This document shows, one piece after another, positions 650 through 46,231 of a stretch of DNA of 64,000 nucleotides. Made by a program: the position numbers and the translations under genes. The notes under the pieces were generated by a model. It was not told the DNA's origin. It did no database searches and saw only the letters and a program-made list of their open reading frames with translations. Numbering within the stretch: the stretch's first letter is position 1; every line of letters starts with the position of its first letter. This DNA is from a gamma proteobacterium symbiont of Taylorina sp. (GTDB lineage: Bacteria; Pseudomonadota; Gammaproteobacteria; GRL18): the NCBI GenBank assembly GCA_025655455.1, contig JAHXIV010000007.1, positions 186,001 to 250,000 of the forward strand. Reading direction: 5' to 3'.

Positions 650-1409
650 TGAGATCAAATATTTTAAGGCATTTAAGGACTGCCACAAAATAAAATTGCA
701 TTTATAAGCTTTCAGTTGCCATTCTATCAAAGCTTCCGCTGTCTTATTTGCAATTTGGACATGTTTGCCAAGCGACAGCGGCACACAATATTTGCTGAAG
801 GCTCTATGTCATTTTGTTTTTGCTTTTTGTTCTGGGATAGCACAGGAACAAGCAAAGTATAAGGTGAGCAAACAGCATCACTATAGTGCGTATTTTTAAC
901 CATTAATGTTAAAAGTTAATATCAATAATTAATCAATATTAATCTGCATTGATATGTTTCGTTTGCTGTATATATTAATGTTCAGATATAGACAATTATT
1001 TTTGTTATTATTATGCGTATATTTATCGTAACACTACTTATTTTTCTACTCATGACTTATTTCTACAAGGAAAATTCTTACCTTGTAAAGAGATAGAGTA
1101 TTCCTGGCTGTTCTTCATGTAATAAGCTTAATTAACAGACACATAGATAATTTCTATTAATGATCTATGCAGCTCATGACATAACTAAGCCAAGGTATTA
1201 ATATCTGCCATATTCCAACATTAAAATATATATTCTTAATCTATGTTTATTCATAACAATTGGCAGATGTAGAATATAATTTAATCTATGTTAAATAATA
1301 TATGATTTGCCTCAAGTAACATTGCCGCCTCAAGAAACACGAATAAAAATCAATAATAATAATAAATCAATAACAATAAATTTAATTAAACCAAGGGGGT
1401 TTATAAACC
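650..1409. other. Long AT-rich intergenic region before aioB
   Basis: No convincing gene is seen in these 760 bases. They hold one palindromic repeat copy (721-804). The rest is very AT-rich and probably carries the aio promoter. Visible structure: TTAATCTATGTT occurs twice (1236-1247 and 1281-1292, 45 bases apart), and ATCTGCCA at 1203-1210 is mirrored by TGGCAGAT at 1261-1268. These may be regulator sites. I found no good sigma-54 -24/-12 pair, although aio promoters in other bacteria are often sigma-54 dependent. Confidence 0.5.
721..804 (-). repeat. Palindromic intergenic repeat, copy A
   Basis: Read on the minus strand it starts GAGCCTTCAGC, contains GCCGCTGTCGCTTGGCAAAC and ends near TTTGATAGAAT. 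The arms CCGCTGTC and GACAGCGG can pair. It shares its start, core and end with copies at 1941, 17976, 21613, 29969 and 46109. It is the only copy in this set not placed against a neighbouring gene. Confidence 0.7.
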
Positions 1410-1928: not shown

Positions 1929-1940
1929 CGATACTGTTAA

Positions 1941-2031
1941 GAGCCTTCAGTAAATGAAATTTATCACTGTCGCTTTGCTAATATTTTTTATAGCAAAGAA
2001 AGACATTGAAAAAATTCATGTTAGATAAGAG
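1941..2031 (+). repeat. Palindromic repeat, copy B, between aioB and aioA
   Basis: It starts GAGCCTTCAGTAAATGAAAT 12 bases after the aioB stop and ends TTCATGTTAGATAAGAG just before the aioA ribosome binding site. The left arm (ATCACTGTCGCTTTGCTA) and right arm (TAGCAAAGAAAGACATTG) can fold into a long imperfect hairpin in the aioBA transcript. The last motif, ATAAGAGG, is duplicated directly downstream, and the second unit is the likely Shine-Dalgarno of aioA. Confidence 0.75.
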
Positions 2032-17962: not shown

Positions 17963-18496
17963 ATGATTGACAAGACTCTTATCAAACATAAAATTGTACC
18001 CTGGTCTTATTTGCAAGGAAAAAATGTTTGCAAAGCGACAGCGGCAAAGTTTTACTGGCCCAATGCTCTAATTTCGGTTCTTATGTTTTTAGCGCTGAGC
18101 ATGCCTGTTATAGCTAATGCTGACCGTCAGTCGGCAGAATTACCCAGCCATGTTTCAAAGCATTTGATGTCCACCATGCGTAATAATCTGGAGTCTCTGG
18201 CACACATTACTTATCTTCTGGCAGACTCTAAATATGCTGAGGCCGCCGATATGGCCGAAAATAACCTTGGTATGTCTTCCATGGAGATTCATTTCAAAAA
18301 ATTCGTGGGCAAATATTTGCCCAAGGGAATGCGTAAGATTAGCAAACAGATGCATAAGGCGGCTTCAGACTTTGCCTTATCTGCCAGAGAAACTGAAAAA
18401 GATGGGGACGTAAACAGGTCATTCTCGGCCTTATCTCAGGTTATGAATCAGTGTGTAGCCTGTCATGATCTTTATCGAGTTAACCGAGCTGACTAA
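17963..18496 (+). CDS. Periplasmic c-type cytochrome with C-terminal haem motif
   Basis: 177 residues if read from the ATG at 17963. The haem c motif CVACH is near the C-terminus, after about 120 residues that look helical, like cytochrome c' or other four-helix cytochromes. A signal peptide precedes ANADRQ (about residues 34-54). The first third is odd: a palindromic repeat (17976-18068) is read in frame and encodes residues from about 5 to 35, before and into the signal sequence. A start at M41 (18083) would give only about 13 residues before the cleavage site, short for a signal peptide. The protein could carry electrons in the periplasm, possibly from arsenite oxidase, but the genes are 13 kb apart. 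Family placement is fair; the start is uncertain. Confidence 0.7.
   Translation: MIDKTLIKHKIVPWSYLQGKNVCKATAAKFYWPNALISVLMFLALSMPVIANADRQSAELPSHVSKHLMSTMRNNLESLAHITYLLADSKYAEAADMAENNLGMSSMEIHFKKFVGKYLPKGMRKISKQMHKAASDFALSARETEKDGDVNRSFSALSQVMNQCVACHDLYRVNRAD
17976..18068 (-). repeat. Palindromic repeat, copy C, inside a coding frame
   Basis: On the plus strand it starts CTCTTATCAAACATAAAATT, has GTTTGCAAAGCGACAGCGGC in the core and ends near AATGCTC, matching the reverse of the other copies. It begins 13 bases after the proposed start of the cytochrome gene and adds codons without a stop. Confidence 0.7.
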
Positions 18497-20862: not shown

Positions 20863-21612
20863 ATGTTAATAATACTTACATTACTCGTATTTGCTTTAGC
20901 CTTTATATTTTCCATGTTGGGGCTTGGCGGGGCGATGTTATATATTCCAGTATTCACATGGTTTGGCTTTGATCTCAAAGGGGTTGCTATTCCAACCGGG
21001 CTATTTCTTAACAGCATTACAGCCCTGTCTGCCGCCATCTTCTATTACCGCGCCAAAATGATTGATGTTCGGGGGACTGCTCCCATGATTATCACCGCCA
21101 TTATAGGAGCACCCATAGGTGCCCATTTTACTCATCTTCTGCCAACAGATATTCTGATAATATTATTCTCCATTGCTATGATTGCTGCTGGTTCAAAAAT
21201 GTTATACAGTGCTTCCGATGAGGAGCCAACCAGCTTACTTGCTTTTAAGAAACGAGCTGGCATCACAGGCATCGCTGGTTTTTTCATTGGTTTTACTTCG
21301 GGATTATTAGGCACAGGCGGTGGTTTTCTATTTGTTCCTTTGATGATAGCAGTCGGCTACCCTACCAAACACGCTGCTGCTAATTCAGCATTTATTGTTC
21401 TATTTTCATCCTTTTCCGGCTTTTTAGGCCATGCTTCTGAAGGCCATTTTAATTGGCAAGTGCTAATTTTTTGTGCGATTGCCGCCGTTATAGGTGCTCA
21501 AATCGGTGGTAAAGTGATGAAAGAGAAAATGAAAGCCCGTTGGATAAAGCAAATATTTGGTGTTTTACTAATTTTTGTGGCTATTAAGTTCTCCTGGAAC
21601 CTTTTCTTTTAA
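20863..21612 (+). CDS. TauE/SafE-family permease
   Basis: 249 residues with about eight membrane helices. It shows the duplicated glycine-rich motifs of the family: LGLGGAMLYIP near residue 20 and GLLGTGGGFLFVPLM near residue 150. Members move sulfite, sulfoacetate or other anions across the inner membrane, mostly outward. No substrate is shown by the neighbours. The stop codon touches palindromic repeat copy D. Confidence 0.88.
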   Translation: MLIILTLLVFALAFIFSMLGLGGAMLYIPVFTWFGFDLKGVAIPTGLFLNSITALSAAIFYYRAKMIDVRGTAPMIITAIIGAPIGAHFTHLLPTDILIILFSIAMIAAGSKMLYSASDEEPTSLLAFKKRAGITGIAGFFIGFTSGLLGTGGGFLFVPLMIAVGYPTKHAAANSAFIVLFSSFSGFLGHASEGHFNWQVLIFCAIAAVIGAQIGGKVMKEKMKARWIKQIFGVLLIFVAIKFSWNLFF

Positions 21613-21705
21613 TTCACCCTAAGCCAAATGAAATTTATCGCTGTCGCTTTGCTAAAAATTTTATAGCTAAGAAAGATGGTGATAAATTTCATGTTAGATT
21701 AAGAG
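21613..21705 (+). repeat. Palindromic repeat, copy D
   Basis: It begins at the stop codon of the TauE/SafE gene, with GCCAAATGAAATTTATCGCT followed by GTCGCTTTGCTA, and ends ATAAATTTCATGTTAGATTA. The arms ATGAAATTTATC and GATAAATTTCAT are perfect 12-base inverted repeats. This is the most symmetric copy. Confidence 0.75.
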
Positions 21706-25160: not shown

Positions 25161-28031
25161 TTAGCCTATAATCCGAAGCCCTGCGGGTAATGACTCACCA
25201 AATACTCGCTGCTGATCCTTTGCATCCAGTGCTGCAACCTGTTCAACCATGTTTATCCAGCTCACTACACACTTTGAATTAATTAGCTTATCGATTACCG
25301 ACAACCTCACCGAATCATCAAGATCACGTTCTCGATCACCACTTTGTCGCGCTATCATACTAGCGGCCAATGCGGCGTGCCTGTTTTTATTCCAGTCCTG
25401 ATCTAATAAACAATCAATCCATTTGCCTGCCACATCCTTAGGCACCACTTTATGGGCGCTTCCATGAAAAGGTACACGGCTGCCAATTCTTCCCAGAGCC
25501 CACCATGAAGCATCAGGTTCTTTCGTTTTCTGCAATCGTTTTACCAGCCATCCGCCCACTTCTATCTTACTCTCAACAGGCAAATGCTCCAACACCGCTA
25601 CCAGCCGAACAATATCTTCATAAGATCTTGTTTTTAACAACTTTTCTGTTTTCTGATTTCTTGAGGCAGCCGGATTAATATACCTGGTTACATCCTTGTA
25701 GATTTTCTTTTGAGCCTCTTCTGTTAGTCCCCCGGCAACCCGACGCCATAATGTCCACCACTCTGACCAGGATTGTGACTCATTAGAAAATTGAACACCT
25801 TGTTGATAGTTTTCCCACAATGCATTCACTTGCCATTCATCTAAAGTATATCCAAATCCTGGTCGAAGACAATAGCCTGTCAAATTATTCCACAGTCTCT
25901 CATGTCGATTAGAGCGACGCCTTCGTTTAGCGCCTTTAGATAACTCCTTCGCTAGGGATCGTAACAGTGGCATATCCCAATCCGCTTTTTTCCCCAATAA
26001 TTTTTCCAGTAAAGGACGCAGGTTTTTCACTGCATTTTTATCTGCTGTTTTATCACTTAGTCCAAATACGACAGCTATCTTCTCTACCGCTTGTGCAAAA
26101 TTATTGGGTAGTTTCTGTTCTGCAGGTTCTCCACTGCCTTCGCTCTCGTGGCTGACAATGGGTGATCTCAGTTGAAATTCCAGTTCCCACGACTGTTTAT
26201 GCTCCTCCTTCGCCACACATTGCATTTGCAGTGTCCCCACCGCTGTCATATTTGCCACTACTTGCACGACAATTTCTTTTTTATGCTTCCCGGCTTTATC
26301 AAGCACAGTCACTAAAGGAGGTAAGGTCACAAAGTTTTCACTGTCTACGTCAATCAACTGGCCTGGAGTATAGGAGTTGTCAGATACTGTCGATATCAAA
26401 TCAAAAGAAACAGGCTGACCTAGTGTTAAGGAAAACTGCTTATCTTTTAATGCGATAGTTTCACCCTCAGAGCTTCCTTTTGGTAAAATACATACGGCTT
26501 TTTTCTCGGCATTGTTTTGATCATCAACCATTAAAAAATAACTTCGAGCAGAGCCGCCTTCGATTTTTGTCTGCCAGCCGCGTCGGGCTAATCCATAGGC
26601 CGAGGCGCCATAGGCAACGGCTCGATCCGGCCGATCATTATCAAGCACTGACAATGGTTCCTGTGACCGCTCCTGTGACCAATGGGCAAACAGTTCGAGT
26701 ACTCTATCAATAATCAATGGGCTATTAAACACACCACCGTTAAATAATATTGCGTCAGGAATCACCGGGTCTTTTAATTCAGCATCGGCATCTAGCCCCA
26801 ACGCTGTACCACAGGCAATTTGGTGGCGTCTGAGAAAAGAGGCAATATGCTTGCTAACGGCCGGATCCGAAGCATAATTCAAACCAAACTCGACAACACC
26901 GGCTCGCCTCTGTTGCGGCATATCATCAAATGTTGTCAATGGAAAGAAACCGTCAATGACCATATCGTGCACATCAGATTTGCGCACCTGAGTTTTACGG
27001 GCACCGCCAATTAATTTAGAGCCACTTCCTAATACAGTAATAGTGGCTAAATCAGGAGCATCCGACGATAACAACAGTTCTTTCGCCTTGCGGCTTTGCT
27101 GAATCAGTTGAGAAAGTGCTGACGCCGTTAATTTCTTTCCGCCCTTTGTCACCTGTTTCTCTGCTTGATGGGCTATCGCTAAATCAACGTTATCGCCACC
27201 TAACATCAAATGATCGCCAACAGCCACACGTTTTAAATCAATATCGTCACCATCAACCGAAACACTAATCAGGCTAAGATCCGTAGTACCGCCACCTAAA
27301 TCACATACCAAAATTAAGCGGGTATCAGCCAGCTTTTCTGCAGCTGCGTCCTGGTGTCGATACAACCAGTCATAGACAACAGCTTGCGGCTCTTCCAGTA
27401 ACAGCAAGTCGCTTAGACCTGCTAACTTCGCCGCTTGCAGCGTAAGTGATCGTGCTGCTTCATCGAAAGAAGCTGGAATGGTAATGACTATTTCCTGCTT
27501 AGCGAGAGGGCTATCAGGAAAACGTTGATCCCACGCATAACGTATATGAGAAAGGAAACTGGCACTTGCTACAACGGGTGATACCCTGGCAACTCCCTCT
27601 GCTGCGGACCACGGCAAAATCGCTGCCTGCCTGTCGACTGAGGGATGAGAGAGCCAGCTTTTTGCACTAACAACCCCCCTGCCATCAACTTTACTATTCA
27701 GCTCTCTGGCCCAGTCTCCGACAATTGCCTCTTCTAAATCACCTCTAAGCGGCTGCGCATTCTTTTTATGCTGCCAGGGCATTGCCGAATCTTCAGGTCT
27801 GATTTCACCGGCGGTAGGGTGATAACGAAAAGAAGGTAAATAAGGACGGGCTGCAATTTCTCCCGGTGCTATCAATTGTTCAATTTCAAACAGCTCTATT
27901 ATTGGCTGCTTTGAGGGCTTTGAGTTTTTTGCTGACTGCGCCAGCGTTAGATCACAATAAGTCACAACACAGTGCGTGGTGCCTAAATCGATGCCTACAA
28001 TATAACTGGAGCCGCCTGCTTGCTTATTCAT
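25161..28031 (-). CDS. Large Hsp70-family protein with C-terminal extension
   Basis: 956 residues. The N-terminal ATPase domain starts VGIDLGTTHCVVTY (phosphate 1) and has LVCDLGGGTTDLSL (phosphate 2) and AILFNGGVFNSP (adenosine region). After about residue 560 comes a substrate-domain-like beta region, then about 300 residues of helical sequence (DUF3731-like) that DnaK does not have. It is the downstream member of a two-Hsp70 unit, starting 106 bases after the upstream gene's stop. No DnaJ or GrpE gene is near. The client and role are unknown. Such paired genes next to DUF2760 proteins recur in proteobacteria, as I recall. Confidence 0.88.
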   Translation of the reverse strand: MNKQAGGSSYIVGIDLGTTHCVVTYCDLTLAQSAKNSKPSKQPIIELFEIEQLIAPGEIAARPYLPSFRYHPTAGEIRPEDSAMPWQHKKNAQPLRGDLEEAIVGDWARELNSKVDGRGVVSAKSWLSHPSVDRQAAILPWSAAEGVARVSPVVASASFLSHIRYAWDQRFPDSPLAKQEIVITIPASFDEAARSLTLQAAKLAGLSDLLLLEEPQAVVYDWLYRHQDAAAEKLADTRLILVCDLGGGTTDLSLISVSVDGDDIDLKRVAVGDHLMLGGDNVDLAIAHQAEKQVTKGGKKLTASALSQLIQQSRKAKELLLSSDAPDLATITVLGSGSKLIGGARKTQVRKSDVHDMVIDGFFPLTTFDDMPQQRRAGVVEFGLNYASDPAVSKHIASFLRRHQIACGTALGLDADAELKDPVIPDAILFNGGVFNSPLIIDRVLELFAHWSQERSQEPLSVLDNDRPDRAVAYGASAYGLARRGWQTKIEGGSARSYFLMVDDQNNAEKKAVCILPKGSSEGETIALKDKQFSLTLGQPVSFDLISTVSDNSYTPGQLIDVDSENFVTLPPLVTVLDKAGKHKKEIVVQVVANMTAVGTLQMQCVAKEEHKQSWELEFQLRSPIVSHESEGSGEPAEQKLPNNFAQAVEKIAVVFGLSDKTADKNAVKNLRPLLEKLLGKKADWDMPLLRSLAKELSKGAKRRRRSNRHERLWNNLTGYCLRPGFGYTLDEWQVNALWENYQQGVQFSNESQSWSEWWTLWRRVAGGLTEEAQKKIYKDVTRYINPAASRNQKTEKLLKTRSYEDIVRLVAVLEHLPVESKIEVGGWLVKRLQKTKEPDASWWALGRIGSRVPFHGSAHKVVPKDVAGKWIDCLLDQDWNKNRHAALAASMIARQSGDRERDLDDSVRLSVIDKLINSKCVVSWINMVEQVAALDAKDQQRVFGESLPAGLRIIG

Positions 28032-28137: not shown

Positions 28138-29982
28138 TCAACTGTCTCTGACATCTAACTCGACATTCCATCGCTCAGCGCCGTTCACTGGCAACGCTTC
28201 AAGCCTGATCGTGCCAACTTCAGTGACTGTTGCTGCTAGATGAACGGGTACAATCTCACCTTTTGTACGGCCTTCAATTGGCAATGTTGCCTGTATTTCA
28301 GGCAGCTCTTCTAATTCACCATCATTCCAGTCTTCCAATATTTCTCCAGGTTGATCTTCCCGCCGGGTAGCAGACCCATAGAATCGAAAACGCACAGGTT
28401 CGCCAACTATTAATCCGAACTCTTCGTTATCGATCATGACATCCGTTCCCTCCTCCATTCCAAATGGGGCAACACATAAGGCCTGTATAGGAGGTTCCAT
28501 GCCCGGCACTGCCGGCATCGAACTCTCTACGCCAATGTAATAAGCATTGGCAATACCACCTCGAATTCGAACCCCTTTACCCTGCCTGACATAGCCATAA
28601 TAAGCAGCCCCCTTCGCTACCGCTAAATCCAGATCAGCCCCTTCTAATAATCGAGCGGCTGCGGCGCCATCACTGCTTAGCCAGTCGTTAATGATATTGA
28701 GTACTTTGTTTGCTAAAATGGGGGCTTTCAGCACACCGCCATTCAATAAAATAGCGCTTGGTTTAATAAAGGAACCACTGGCTCCCTCAAACCCTTCAAC
28801 ATCGTCCATAGCATCTACCTGCTTACTGAGAAATGCTGCCAGGTGGCGAGTGACCGCTGCATCTTGTGCATAGGGCAAGCCCAGTTTAGTTAATGCCGCT
28901 CGGGGATTATGCACAGGATGTTCATCCACGGACACCTGTGGAAAGAATCCTTCGATTAATGTTTGCTCAATGTCTTGTCTCGTTAATTCGGCTCTTAGCG
29001 TACCGCCCATTAATCTGGAGCCTCTACTGGGTACAACCAGCGGTACAGAATCCACACCGGGATCAGCAAGCAAAGTCTCTTTAGCATCTCTACAGCCATG
29101 GGTTAAAGCAATGACTTGCCAGGCTTGTAATTTTTTACCCTGCTGCGCCAGCCTGGCCTTAATTCTATAGGCCAGTGCTAAATCCATATTGTCTCCACCC
29201 AACAAAATATGGTCGCCTACAGCAATACGATTTAAGGTGAGGTTCCCTTCATCTTCTGTCACTGCAATCAACGACAAATCTGTTGTGCCGCCACCTATAT
29301 CCACCACCAGGATGATATCGCCTACCATTACCTGCTCACGCCATGTTTTACCAGCCTGATGAATCCAGCTATAAACTGCAGCCTGAGGCTCTTCCAAAAG
29401 CGTCAAATGCTGAAACCCTGTTGCACGTGCGGCTTCGGCAGTCAGTTCCCTTGCAGCCGGATCAAATGAAGCGGGAACCGTGATTATAAGCTGTTGATTT
29501 TCTATTGGGTTATCACTGTTCGAGTGATTCCAGGATGATTTAAGGTGTTCCAGATAAGCAATGGTGGCCTCAAAAGGTGATATTTTTTCCACTTCTTCCG
29601 GGCTTTCTAAAGGCAGGAATGCTGAACGTCGATCCACCCCAGCATGACATAACCAGCTCTTTGCACTGGATATGAGTCGTATCGGTGTTTTGCTCCCCAT
29701 CTTCCTCGCCAGTTCTCCCACCAATTGGTTGGGCGCTCCATTCCAGGGTAAGGCTAAATCACCTGAAGCAACTTCCGACTCATGAAACTGATAGATGAAC
29801 GACGGCAGTTGCAGCCGCTCATCTATGCTGCCAGGAGCTGTTAACTGGGGAATAAATAACACTTCCTGTTTTATTGCATCGGTCTTCGCCGCCTCATCAG
29901 CCATCTGCAAATCCAGATAGGACAAAACACAGTGGGTTGTTCCCAGGTCAATCCCAATACTGTACTGGCTCTTATCTAACAT
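28138..29982 (-). CDS. Hsp70-family protein
   Basis: 614 residues from the ATG at 29982, chosen because AGGGG lies 8 bases before it; an ATG at 30000 lacks a site. ATPase motifs: GIDLGTTHCVLSY, VVDIGGGTTDLSL and AILLNGGVLKAP. The substrate domain is short, and the protein ends without the DnaK lid or EEVD-like tail. The start codon and Shine-Dalgarno fall inside palindromic repeat copy F, so the first residues (MLDKS) are repeat-encoded. It lies between the DUF2760 gene and the longer Hsp70 gene, all on one strand. Confidence 0.87.
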   Translation of the reverse strand: MLDKSQYSIGIDLGTTHCVLSYLDLQMADEAAKTDAIKQEVLFIPQLTAPGSIDERLQLPSFIYQFHESEVASGDLALPWNGAPNQLVGELARKMGSKTPIRLISSAKSWLCHAGVDRRSAFLPLESPEEVEKISPFEATIAYLEHLKSSWNHSNSDNPIENQQLIITVPASFDPAARELTAEAARATGFQHLTLLEEPQAAVYSWIHQAGKTWREQVMVGDIILVVDIGGGTTDLSLIAVTEDEGNLTLNRIAVGDHILLGGDNMDLALAYRIKARLAQQGKKLQAWQVIALTHGCRDAKETLLADPGVDSVPLVVPSRGSRLMGGTLRAELTRQDIEQTLIEGFFPQVSVDEHPVHNPRAALTKLGLPYAQDAAVTRHLAAFLSKQVDAMDDVEGFEGASGSFIKPSAILLNGGVLKAPILANKVLNIINDWLSSDGAAAARLLEGADLDLAVAKGAAYYGYVRQGKGVRIRGGIANAYYIGVESSMPAVPGMEPPIQALCVAPFGMEEGTDVMIDNEEFGLIVGEPVRFRFYGSATRREDQPGEILEDWNDGELEELPEIQATLPIEGRTKGEIVPVHLAATVTEVGTIRLEALPVNGAERWNVELDVRDS

Positions 29983-30057
29983 GAAATTATCCCCTGACAT
30001 ATTTGCTTTTGTATGTTGGCAAAATAACAGTGGAAAATTTCATTTGGCTGACGGCTC
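29969..30057 (-). repeat. Palindromic repeat, copy F, spanning a gene junction
   Basis: On the minus strand it runs from the DUF2760 stop codon (GAGCCGTCAGCCAAATGAAA) to TTTCATGTTAGATAAGAG, which includes the ATG and first codons of the Hsp70 gene. The core has diverged (CACTGTTATTTTGCCAAC) but both ends match the other copies closely. Confidence 0.72.
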
Positions 30058-30700
30058 ATAACTCTACTTCAGCTGCTGCAACGATAGTGGTATCGTGCCC
30101 AGCGGACAATTTAGGCAGATTGACTGCTTCCGCACGCCATCCACGATGGATAAGCGTTCCCGTAAAAGGTGCTGCACCAACAACATTACCCGTTAATCTA
30201 ACTTCTGACGCATTAAAACCCTCCGCCAAAGTAACACGGCTCTCTTCATCTTCTGATCGAATCGGACTTAAGGTAAAGTATTCATTGATCGCTTTTTTGC
30301 TACCCTCATGCACTACGCGGGCAGCCGCACCGACTTCCTCGTCGGAGTAGACCCCAATTTCCTCTTGCACAAAATCAATTAATCGGGCTTCTTGCTGTAG
30401 TAAACCCAAAAACTGCAGAGCCGATTCTGGTGATGACTGTTTAATAGTTGATGACTCCTTAACAGTTGATGACTCTTTAACAGCAGGAACAGCTGTGGAA
30501 TCAATTTTATTATCATCAGTATCAGTGACTTCAATTGATGGAGTATCATTTGTCGTACTATCATCCATTTCTGTATCAACTAAAATACGTTTTGAGGGTT
30601 TCAGTAGAAATGCAAAAAACAGGATCACGGCGATACCTGCTAACGTAATGTGAGCCAGGTCAAATGTGGCTGGCAATTGTAGAGTTAAATCAAAATTCAT
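30056..30700 (-). CDS. DUF2760-like membrane-anchored protein
   Basis: About 214 residues from the ATG at 30700, which has AGGAAA 8 bases upstream; an earlier ATG is six codons away. An N-terminal segment (LAHITLAGIAVILFFAFLL) is a membrane helix. A Ser/Thr/Asp-rich linker follows, with a near-repeated VKESSTVKESS stretch. The last 130 residues form the conserved part (LQFLGLLQQEARLIDFVQEE, GAAARVVHEG). It is the first gene of the Hsp70 pair unit and may tether or regulate the Hsp70s at the membrane. No biochemical function is known to me. Confidence 0.75.
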   Translation of the reverse strand: MNFDLTLQLPATFDLAHITLAGIAVILFFAFLLKPSKRILVDTEMDDSTTNDTPSIEVTDTDDNKIDSTAVPAVKESSTVKESSTIKQSSPESALQFLGLLQQEARLIDFVQEEIGVYSDEEVGAAARVVHEGSKKAINEYFTLSPIRSEDEESRVTLAEGFNASEVRLTGNVVGAAPFTGTLIHRGWRAEAVNLPKLSAGHDTTIVAAAEVEL

Positions 30701-30746
30701 GGTTAAGTTTCCTATCAAACATAAACAGCCTTGAGCGAATAAAGAG

Positions 30747-30811
30747 TTGCCCCTGTCTTATTTGCAAGGGCTCTTAATAATCAAAAAAAGGTGTCATATT
30801 GCCAGGGGCAA
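30747..30811. repeat. Inverted repeat, possibly a decayed seventh palindromic copy
   Basis: TTGCCCCTG (30747-30755) and CAGGGGCAA (30803-30811) are perfect inverted arms. Between them, CTGTCTTATTTGCAA (30753-30767) is identical to a stretch of copy A and nearly so to copy C. The ends of the family are missing. The remaining bases of the 30719-31014 gap hold no gene. Confidence 0.4.
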
Positions 30812-31682: not shown

Positions 31683-32296
31683 TCAAATATTGACATTCTC
31701 TCTCACCCCAGTCCCACAGGCTATCAAGCGGTGACCACACTGAACACATTTAAATTCTGCCTGAGTTTGTCGGTTACCCTTGTTTCTATGATAGCACATT
31801 GGAGATGTTTGACTGGTGTATTTCGGATCAACAAACAACATTTGAGCACCTGGCCAGAATTGTTTGTATTCCAGAAAGGTCTTGAACAGTCCCCAGCTCT
31901 GATCGAGTATGACTCGGTTCAAGCCTGATTTTTGTTTCACCATCCGTCCATGATTATTCGTATCACGTTTCACTGATTTCGTCATCTGGTAGAAAGCAAC
32001 CGCTATGGGTTCAGGTAATTCAATTTCAACCTGAATGGAAACAAACCAGTGATCTCCCTGATGTGAAACGGTAACATTTTTTGCCGTAACCTCTGACTCT
32101 CTGGATTTTCTAAAATTAACCCAACCAATTTTGGGCAGAAAAATTCTTTTACCTTCAATTTTTAAACCTTGAGGCAGAGTAAAACTATCTCTATCTCTAT
32201 CTCCTCGTTTCTTAAATGCGGGTATTTTCTTAAACGGTTGTTTTTGTCAAATGCATCCTTAAAGGCTCGTTCAAATTGTTTTAAGGTTTGTTCCAA
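31683..32296 (-). pseudogene. IS200/IS605-type TnpB remnant with its catalytic core deleted
   Basis: The C-terminal part reads KSGLNRVILDQSW, FKTFLEYKQFWPGAQ and VDPKYTSQTSPMC with CVQCGH, the TnpB zinc-ribbon region. Upstream in the same frame are KRIFLPKIGWVNFRKS and SIQVEIELPEP, which belong to the N-terminal half. The two halves are joined directly (FYQMTKSVKRD), so roughly 100 or more residues are gone, including the first RuvC acidic residues. One zinc-binding Cys is Ser (SQTSPMC). A frameshift near 32222 separates a further N-terminal piece (LEQTLKQFERAFKDAFD). No transposase TnpA or intact ends are visible. Confidence 0.72.
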
Positions 32297-32617: not shown

Positions 32618-32995
32618 TTAAGGCTGAAACTTAATAAGCTCAAGTTCTTTAATTATTTTGTAATGCTTTGTATTTCCTGTTATCAGTGGAATGCCATGAG
32701 AGACAGCTGTTGCTACAATTAAAGCATCTGCAAGTTGCATAGAATGACTTAAAAAATGCTGTTCAATATAAAACATTGCTCTGCTTGATATTTCTTCAGT
32801 AACATAGTTGATTTTTGTTTCCCAAGATTTTAAAGCTTTACGTAATAAATTTAATTCATTTTTGTTTCTCATACCTTGAACTAATTCCATGTATGTTATT
32901 ACTGAAATACTAAAACCATTATACTTTTCTATAGTATTGAGGGCTTTCATGTTTCCATTCATATACCAAATAATTACATCGGTATCAATTAACAT
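32618..32995 (-). CDS. PIN-domain toxin (VapC type)
   Basis: 125 residues. Acidic PIN residues are visible: D4 in MLIDTDV, E in TYMELVQG, and D in LADALIVATA, near residue 90. VapC toxins are Mg-dependent endoribonucleases that cut tRNA or rRNA. The start overlaps the antitoxin stop by 11 bases, so the order is antitoxin then toxin. The family is clear; the RNA target is not known. Confidence 0.9.
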   Translation of the reverse strand: MLIDTDVIIWYMNGNMKALNTIEKYNGFSISVITYMELVQGMRNKNELNLLRKALKSWETKINYVTEEISSRAMFYIEQHFLSHSMQLADALIVATAVSHGIPLITGNTKHYKIIKELELIKFQP

Positions 32996-33230
32996 TAAAT
33001 CTGTCTTGCCTTATATTTCGAACATGATTCTTTACATCTTGAGTCTGAGGATTATCCTTCCAGATACCAAATAGCTCATTTTGAGTTTTTAAGTCCTCAT
33101 TTTCATCATCTATAGGGACTAATTTAGCACAAGATTTTCCATGGTAGCTTATGACAACCTCCTCACCTCTTTTAACTGTGTTAAGCAACTCTGTAGAATG
33201 AAATCTAAGATCTTTTGCTGTTGCTTGCAT
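32985..33230 (-). CDS. Phd/YefM-type antitoxin
   Basis: About 81 residues from the ATG at 33230, which has a GAGG site; an earlier in-frame start is four codons up. The N-terminal DNA-binding region is MQATAKDLRFHSTELLNTVK followed by RGEEVVISYHGK and AKLVPID, the Phd/YefM pattern. The C-terminal tail should wrap the PIN toxin. It likely represses its own operon through the inverted repeat at 33255-33283. Confidence 0.88.
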   Translation of the reverse strand: MQATAKDLRFHSTELLNTVKRGEEVVISYHGKSCAKLVPIDDENEDLKTQNELFGIWKDNPQTQDVKNHVRNIRQDRFNVN

Positions 33231-33254
33231 AACATACCTCATTAAATATTTTAA

Positions 33255-33505: not shown

Positions 33506-33790
33506 ATGAAAACTGAAATGCTTACAACCCGTATTGACCATGATACTAAATTGGCTTTTATCCACATTTGTGATGAGGTTGGGTTAAGCCCATCACAAGC
33601 TATTAAATTATTTGCACGTGCTGTTATCAATTATGGCGGCATTCCATTTGAACTTAAAGCAAAACAACCAAATTCTGTGACTGTAGCCGCTATTCAGGAG
33701 CTTTCACAAGGAAAAGGGCACAAAGCTGAGAGTGTAACCAGCCTAATTGCAGAGTTAACAGAAGACAAAGTGACAAATGTACACTCTTGA
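33506..33790 (+). CDS. RelB/DinJ-type antitoxin
   Basis: 94 residues. The ribbon-helix-helix start (MLTTRIDHDTKLAFIHICDEVGLSPSQAIKLF, split by my reading into one strand and two helices) and YGGIPFEL are typical of RelB/DinJ. The toxin partner that overlaps its end is truncated (33777-33851), so the antitoxin seems to have outlived its toxin. The sequence from 33231 to 33505, apart from the operator, shows no gene. Confidence 0.85.
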   Translation: MKTEMLTTRIDHDTKLAFIHICDEVGLSPSQAIKLFARAVINYGGIPFELKAKQPNSVTVAAIQELSQGKGHKAESVTSLIAELTEDKVTNVHS

Positions 33791-33851
33791 TTACTCACCC
33801 CAATTTAAAAAAGATTTGATTTTGTCACCTAGGCAGAAAATTAAGCTCTAA
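33777..33851 (+). pseudogene. Truncated YafQ/RelE-type toxin
   Basis: The frame starts MYTLDYSPQFKKDLIL, the usual N-terminus of YafQ-like mRNA interferases, and stops after 24 codons where the family continues for about 90. It overlaps the RelB/DinJ-type gene end by 14 bases as intact pairs do. All catalytic residues (C-terminal) are gone. Confidence 0.7.
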
Positions 33852-33885
33852 ATTTATAGATAAATATCTAGCCTGTGCTAGAATT

Positions 33886-33903
33886 AAAGTACAATTGTAC
33901 TTT
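33886..33903 (+). promoter_or_regulatory. Perfect 18-base palindrome before a PIN toxin pair
   Basis: AAAGTACAATTGTACTTT lies 11 bases before the start codon at 33915. It is probably the autoregulatory operator of the toxin-antitoxin pair. Confidence 0.65.
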
Positions 33904-33914
33904 TAGGTATATCT

Positions 33915-34310
33915 ATGAAAATAACAATAGATACTTCTGCTCTCTTAGCAGTTATCTTAAATGAGCCTGAAAAGGCTACGATTCTTAATATGACGAAAGG
34001 TGTTCAACTTCTTTCACCTGAGTCAGTTCATTGGGAAATAGGCAATGCATTTTCTGCAATGATAAAAAGAGAAAGGATTTTATTACAGCTTGCCCAGCAA
34101 GGAATTCAAGAATATCAAAATATACCTATAAAATTCATAAATATTGATATTGTTTCTACATTGGAACTTGTTGAGAAATTTAAAATGTATGCTTATGATG
34201 CCTATTTAATAAAGTGTTCCATGCAAACAGACACGGCACTACTAACATTGGACAAAGGGCTACAGAATATTGCCAAATCAGTTGGTACTAAAGTCTTGGA
34301 GATAAAATAA
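33915..34310 (+). CDS. PIN-domain toxin (VapC type), toxin-first pair
   Basis: 131 residues. MKITIDTSALLAVIL carries the first PIN Asp. E in VHWEIGNAFSA is the second acidic residue, and YAYDAYLIKCS and LLTLDKGL hold the later Asp residues. It should be an RNA endonuclease. Here the toxin gene comes first, and its stop overlaps the antitoxin start by one base (TAATG). That is the reverse of the minus-strand pair 700 bases away. Confidence 0.88.
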   Translation: MKITIDTSALLAVILNEPEKATILNMTKGVQLLSPESVHWEIGNAFSAMIKRERILLQLAQQGIQEYQNIPIKFINIDIVSTLELVEKFKMYAYDAYLIKCSMQTDTALLTLDKGLQNIAKSVGTKVLEIK

Positions 34311-46108: not shown

Positions 46109-46213
46109 CTCTTATCAAACATGAATTTGTCATCGCTATCTCTTCGCAGGACTTTTTTTATAAAAGAGAAGTGTTTGCAAAGTGACAGCGATAAATATCA
46201 TTTGGCTGAGAGC
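46109..46213 (-). repeat. Palindromic repeat, copy E
   Basis: The plus strand begins CTCTTATCAAACATGAATTT just after the alkaline phosphatase stop, has GTTTGCAAAGTGACAGCGAT in the core and ends CATTTGGCTGAGAGC. A partial second copy of the end (TTTATCAAACATAAATTATG) follows and runs into the lipA start. This is the longest copy, with an extra inner arm. Confidence 0.75.
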
Positions 46214-46231
46214 TTTTATCAAACATAAATT

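Follow-up and report, generated by a model that had tools for sequence, protein, structure and literature searches.

How can a chaperone gene keep being translated when a mobile repeat occupies the place at which its translation begins? The question is raised by an Hsp70-like gene of a gammaproteobacterial symbiont of Taylorina sp. (genome G000; the window, meaning the whole stretch of DNA analysed, is 64,000 nucleotides of contig JAHXIV010000007.1). A sequence-only reading had claimed that one copy of a repeat, copy F, supplies both the ribosome-binding site and the start of this gene, and the claim is supported by empty sites in relatives, by the reading frame and by Shine–Dalgarno (SD) pairing. 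It is very probable that the start of Hsp70 was rebuilt by the mobile repeat, whose tail acts as a portable start; as parts of the same reading, insertions that heal their target would survive, and coupling to the upstream gene might be relayed through the element. The features on which this reading draws are the following.

25161..28031, minus strand: third gene of the unit, Hsp70-like with a C-terminal DUF3731
28138..29982, minus strand: Hsp70-like gene encoding 614 aa when read from the ATG of the element (Pfam HSP70, E 5.5e-16)
29969..30057, minus strand: copy F of the dispersed palindromic element (covariance model and BLAST; empty site in L032, L033, L035 and L036)
29976..30059, minus strand: 27-codon frame that begins at the ancestral ATG, crosses the element and stops at a TAG overlapping the new ATG (ATGTTAG); proposed relay
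29980..29982, minus strand: new Hsp70 start ATG, from the element tail ATGTTAGATAAGAG; the only in-frame start with SD-like pairing
29991..29995, minus strand: AGGGG, SD-like, in the element, 8 nt 5' of the ATG (anti-SD duplex -6.5 kcal/mol)
29998..30000, minus strand: in-frame upstream ATG (MSGDNF-MLDKS), alternative start in the element (duplex -0.1 kcal/mol)
30056..30718, minus strand: DUF2760 gene as an open reading frame, first start TTG at 30718, ATG at 30700 (Pfam DUF2760, E 2.9e-53)
30057..30059, minus strand: relic of the ancestral Hsp70 ATG, out of frame with Hsp70 (empty-site comparison)

The DUF2760 profile is matched to its last position, and each of the six close genomes has two adjacent Hsp70-like matches. 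A TnpB/Cas12f-like remnant (31683-31985, minus strand; TNB domain, E 9e-14) lies a short way upstream of the chaperone genes, and the window also has two toxin–antitoxin-like pairs, one of a PIN domain and a Phd/YefM-like protein under the Pfam cut-off (32618-33242, minus strand), the other of RelB and a PIN domain (33506-34310, plus strand).

Copy F (29969-30057, minus strand) was matched to copy E of the window by BLAST (E 0.0013) and reaches 70.2 bits (window E 3e-10) against a covariance model made from 25 copies, F included; Rfam gave no match in 29700-30300. As had been read from the sequence, it extends from the GA of the DUF2760 TGA (30056-30058) to the AG of Hsp70 codon 5, its exact ends being ambiguous because GAGCC is present on both sides, and both AGGGG and the ATG fall inside it. 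The further statement that the end of the element encodes MLDKS holds for MLDK and two bases of the serine codon, which the element leaves incomplete. Hsp70 now begins MLDK-S where relatives have M-S, the tail ATG-TTA-GAT-AAG-AG being joined to the old codon 2 (AGC). The frame near the start contains two ATGs, at 29982 and 30000, and since the second also lies in the element, the start is element-borne either way.

What the junction looked like before the insertion can be read in relatives. Among 57 genomes searched, seven, this one included, have an Hsp70 match at E <= 1e-80: six close (89–93% to G000) and one distant (44%). Two of the close relatives, BB34 and BB36, share their names with metagenome-assembled genomes from a marine bone microbiome that are labelled unclassified gammaproteobacteria in PMC7883544. 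In relatives without the repeat both the ATG and the spacing differ, four of the six close genomes starting Hsp70 at an ATG that overlaps the stop. In these four (G005, G007, G012 and G021) the junction is empty and reads GAGTTATGAGCC(A/G)GTA, with the DUF2760 TGA overlapping the Hsp70 ATG by 4 nt (TTATGAGC); the TGA of the filled junction is therefore not new, the same codon being present there. In the remaining two, G000 and G019, the element follows ATGAGCC and is itself followed by another GAGCC. The wider comparison covered 80 relatives (L053 and L054 being G007 and G012 again), with the first in-frame start taken from a point 12 nt 5' of the stop: the overlap is 4 nt in 46 and 1 nt in 32, one start lies at +2 and one was not determined. 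As the overlap is held in 78 of these 80 and in the four close empty junctions, it is deeply conserved and was broken by the insertion. In the junctions printed for L053-L132, from Vibrio to Paraburkholderia, DUF2760 ends in AEVEL in nearly all, and the overlapping start follows.

The comparison of filled with empty sites shows the insertion of a non-autonomous palindromic repeat behind the GAG of TTATGAGCC. Insertion at this point of the conserved 4-nt DUF2760 stop/Hsp70 start overlap put the ancestral ATG (30059-30057) out of frame, because the net insertion of copy F is 86 nt, and the element tail ATG-TTA-GAT-AAG-AG meets the target again in phase with codon 2, giving M-L-D-K-S.

The element is not peculiar to this junction. 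At least 137 matches of about 90 nt (E <= 0.01) were found in the 4.5-Mb genome, a lower bound because only 150 of 5,860 first-look candidates were scored, and the unit is far too short to code for a transposase. Its sequence forms a long, imperfect palindrome, the consensus of which begins (T)AAGAGCCNTCRGC... and finishes ...ATGTTTGATAAGAG. When 25 copies were folded singly, most gave one long predicted hairpin (the weakest -11.2 kcal/mol), and the structure of the covariance model was taken from these single folds; the RNAalifold consensus of the 25-copy alignment is weak, probably because of indels. The family is present in 13 of the 57 genomes searched, this one included, and outside the genus only in G019; in a sample of the class it occurs in two of 274 genomes, this one and one of the same genus. 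Six copies are listed in the window at E <= 0.0003, copy F and the following.

721..807, minus strand: copy A, degenerate (covariance model, E 0.00026)
1938..2031, plus strand: copy B, common to G000 and G005 (covariance model)
17976..18071, minus strand: copy C, present at this site in G005 and absent from it in G007 and G019 (covariance model and empty sites)
21611..21704, plus strand: copy E, strong predicted hairpin, z -4.73 (BLAST and covariance model)
46109..46218, minus strand: copy G (covariance model)

The orthologue of copy B in G005 has an extra element piece at its left end. The element model also matches 30709-30776 (minus strand), upstream of DUF2760, weakly (21.4 bits, E 0.15); this may be a degraded copy or a coincidence. 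In G000, copies form tandem arrays, repeating every 87–90 nt or so, at C2:78745-79385, C53:8714-8980, C5:44942-45496 and C10:13532-13713; they look as if new copies enter behind the GAG end of older ones. Because GAG is found on both sides, target duplication and insertion behind the GAG of a GAG-ending element leave indistinguishable junctions. The genome was searched for Y1 (HUH) transposases only; there were four matches, none of which had a copy closer than about 1.5 kb (best E 0.47). An origin from IS200/IS605 or REP/RAYT (PATE) elements was considered and is unproven, no copy lying beside the four Y1 matches; action in trans is possible.

The same event is seen at other genes. fabF is present in all 24 family genomes, and the 14 other loci read are all without the element, with a native TTG or ATG directly before (A/S/T/N)KRRVV; in this genome the relic ATGGCTAAGAG (GATGGCTAAGAG) is kept 5' of the element, after which comes ATG-TTA-GAT-AAG-AGA. 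The GMC oxidoreductase gene, found in 19 of 24 family genomes, starts with ATG-AGT, ATG-AAT or ATG-TCT in all 11 other loci read, each without the element, and here reads ATGAG, element, ATG-TTA-GAT-AAT-AGC. The pattern is repeated, as judged from joined flanks, at BioF-like, MenC-like and signal-peptide-like genes and at one more gene in G001; for the MenC-like gene (C30:35870) the start repair is taken from the joined flanks only, because a clean orthologous junction is missing. Since the same event recurs at these genes, the tail behaves as a portable start, healing ATGAG or ATG..AAGAG targets, and healing insertions would survive because the gene stays translated. Fourteen further copies lie inside genes, in frame, all of exactly 87 nt net and with an open frame through the element (among them, in G000, loci L218, L227, L161, L237, L221, L240, L274, L147 and L156). 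Their hosts include RibD, MutL (between domains), a hybrid histidine kinase, an M1 peptidase, an FtsX-type permease and a helicase-like protein, and they encode a common peptide of about 29 residues, roughly SPRPINSPAVVLQTSSPANKTVGEFMFDKS.

The second line of evidence is the frame in which copies meet the gene behind them. In this genome 136 of the 137 copies were used (C35:44612 was left out), and the raw count of frames with >=100 open codons, made on the 106 copies with a tail ATG and no copy directly behind, is 27:6:4 with the tail-ATG frame first (p 1e-6), or 20:6:4 of 99 without intragenic insertions (p 2e-4). This raw excess is absent in other genomes, where 5:2:6 was counted among 58 ATG copies (68 copies were kept from 71 matches, three being duplicates or a reverse-strand shadow). 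A narrower test was devised after this failed replication: the element was removed by script and the frame of the joined flanks compared. Its end-match filter was passed by 121 of 136 copies in this genome and 63 of 68 in the others. Start-near insertions, i.e., those <=6 codons from the ATG of a gene of >=100 codons, give 9:1:0 here and 2:0:0 elsewhere, in total 11:1:0, with p 5e-5 under a null of 1/3 and 0.003 under 1/2; the latter may be fairer for TAAGAG targets, because TAA closes one frame. The intragenic class gives 11:1:0 and 4:0:0, or 14:1:0 once C18:21860, counted as intragenic only through Ns, is excluded (p 0.0005 under 1/2); the 14 in-frame copies remain, and the sole frame-1 row is an array copy. 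The set of start copies is small and was partly picked by eye: eight of 11 were kept as strong, and those set aside were C53:8714, which belongs to an array, and C4:140652 and C16:31277, which make a weaker case for a native start.

How Hsp70 would be reached by ribosomes is a separate issue. It is proposed that reinitiation at the old ATG would let ribosomes translate the 27-codon element frame, that these ribosomes would open the hairpin hiding AGGGG, and that, having terminated at the TAG that overlaps the new ATG, they would start again on it, relaying DUF2760 coupling over the 73-nt gap. For native E. coli pairs, the accessible part of PMC10666635 describes reinitiation as almost abolished at +38 nt and ranks -8 third among stop/start spacings. 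The 73-nt gap should, on these figures, uncouple Hsp70 unless the relay works. The predicted hairpin of copy F is of moderate stability (-21 kcal/mol, z -2.05, 8 of 200 shuffles equally stable) and includes AGGGG and the AU of AUG, which fits opening by a translating ribosome; that predicted for the G019 copy is weak (z -1.21). All eight start copies rated strong can be read, without a stop inside the element, in the frame set by the old start. Two, of triplet length, continue into the gene; in five of the six non-triplet ones the stop and the new ATG share 7 or 8 nt (7 in F, 8 in G019), and in the fabF copy the old frame ends 5 nt before the new ATG. As controls, 76 other non-triplet copies were taken, of which 36 stay open to this point and 17 have their stop on the ATG (p 0.015 and 0.005); the comparison was made post hoc, and many copies outside the start set also have an open element frame. 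A stricter filter in this control removed three of the 14 intragenic copies, leaving 11.

The same data bear on another account, to which slightly less than an even chance is given: the element would bring an independent ribosome-binding site and start, the coupling to DUF2760 would be lost, and the 27-codon frame would be incidental. The stable duplex of AGGGG with the anti-SD (-6.5 kcal/mol) speaks for it, as does the frame open to the tail in 36 of 76 non-triplet copies that have no role at a start. It is less easily reconciled with non-triplet start copies, whose frame is open in six of six and ends on the new ATG in five, or with the G019 copy, which has no AGGGG before its ATG.

The junction in G019 deserves attention in its own right. 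This genome belongs to another genus, and a different copy fills it at the same base. Copy F is 66% identical to the G019 copy and 86% to a copy of its own genome, C16:31277, whereas the G000 and G019 flanks are about 88–90% identical. Trees of the flanking genes group G019 with the empty G021 (FastTree 0.996 and 0.953; IQ-TREE 88). The simplest reading of these comparisons would be that separate insertions occurred at the same base. A single ancestral insertion, precisely lost several times, is unlikely; it would account for the identical site and for the same left end GAGCCGTCAGC in both genomes, and support is low (0.334 and 53) for the branch on which G007 is placed, but the trees, with their support for G019 and G021, would demand several precise losses, and the elements are far less alike than their flanks.

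Less probable still is translation from the ATG at 30000, also within the element, which would add MSGDNF before MLDKS. No ATG comes earlier in the open frame, and annotation programs may pick this one; its SD pairing of -0.1 kcal/mol is set against -6.5 for the ATG at 29982, the G019 copy has no in-frame upstream start, and the conserved protein begins at about SQYSIGIDLG. An allele in decay, with Hsp70 now untranslated, is scarcely credible: a deeply conserved overlap was broken and dN/dS is slightly higher for this copy (0.118–0.143, compared with 0.082–0.125 among relatives), but these values indicate clear purifying selection, the 614 codons are intact, and the same solution was reached in G019.

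With the rebuilt start as the preferred reading, a broader proposal can be formulated, whose probability is put a little below one half. It assumes that a marine gammaproteobacterial genus carries a family of mobile palindromes with a universal target-repair tail, which would restore an in-frame ATG (ATG-TTT-GAT-AAG|AGN) behind GAG at starts; its interior would be open in the incoming frame and its shifted frames would end on the ATG, so that genes would be healed and coupled at any length of insertion, while inside genes only the 87-nt in-frame form would be tolerated. The empty sites show a mobile repeat landing on a start codon without loss of the gene and bringing its own in-frame start along, and surviving at a start even where the operon junction is probably translationally coupled. 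This offers a testable account of how small selfish repeats persist in gene-dense genomes. As native N-termini are altered by the insertion (MLDK-, MFDK-), caution is needed in gene-start annotation in the genus, and the filled junctions are natural constructs for the study of relayed termination–reinitiation.

No report of a repeat restoring start codons at many genes was found in the literature searched, which covered little of the subscription literature. Several known systems share single traits with the element. MITEAba12 of Acinetobacter is likewise a short mobile repeat, with start codons near its ends that could fuse with neighbouring coding sequences (PMC6382973). In the available part of that report, this use of starts is a possibility raised from the consensus, whereas here it is shown by empty sites; MITEAba12 is also described as having target duplications of 9 bp, and a parent IS is proposed for it; for the present element no parent was found. 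The 107-bp Correia/NEMIS element is another short repeat, and ORFs within it occur fused to other ORFs (PMC2229807); restoration of start sites is unmentioned in the accessible portion of its description, and it is set apart here by description. In comparison with ATGA termination–reinitiation coupling, of which the ancestral 4-nt overlap is a case, a mobile element would here give rise to the overlap, with a short frame acting as relay.

The closest known kind, by description, is that of the Rickettsia palindromic elements (RPE), dispersed palindromic repeats located in frame in unrelated coding genes and encoding a shared peptide (PMC10969869). The 14 copies inside genes, in frame and with an 87-nt net insert, resemble them, which is not so for copy F (86 nt). 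Unlike RPE, the element is about 87 rather than about 150 nt long, its host is a gammaproteobacterium, and it has the start-rebuilding mode, which goes unmentioned in the available text on RPE. For that mode the parallel lies elsewhere. Integrative elements such as the SXT/R391 integrative and conjugative element (ICE) in prfC reportedly insert at the 5' end of a gene and supply a replacement start and N-terminus. They are large and integrase-driven, with one main site per genome, whereas the element described here is a tiny repeat acting at several genes. It thus resembles the integrative elements that rebuild 5' ends when it lies at a start, and RPE when it lies inside a gene.
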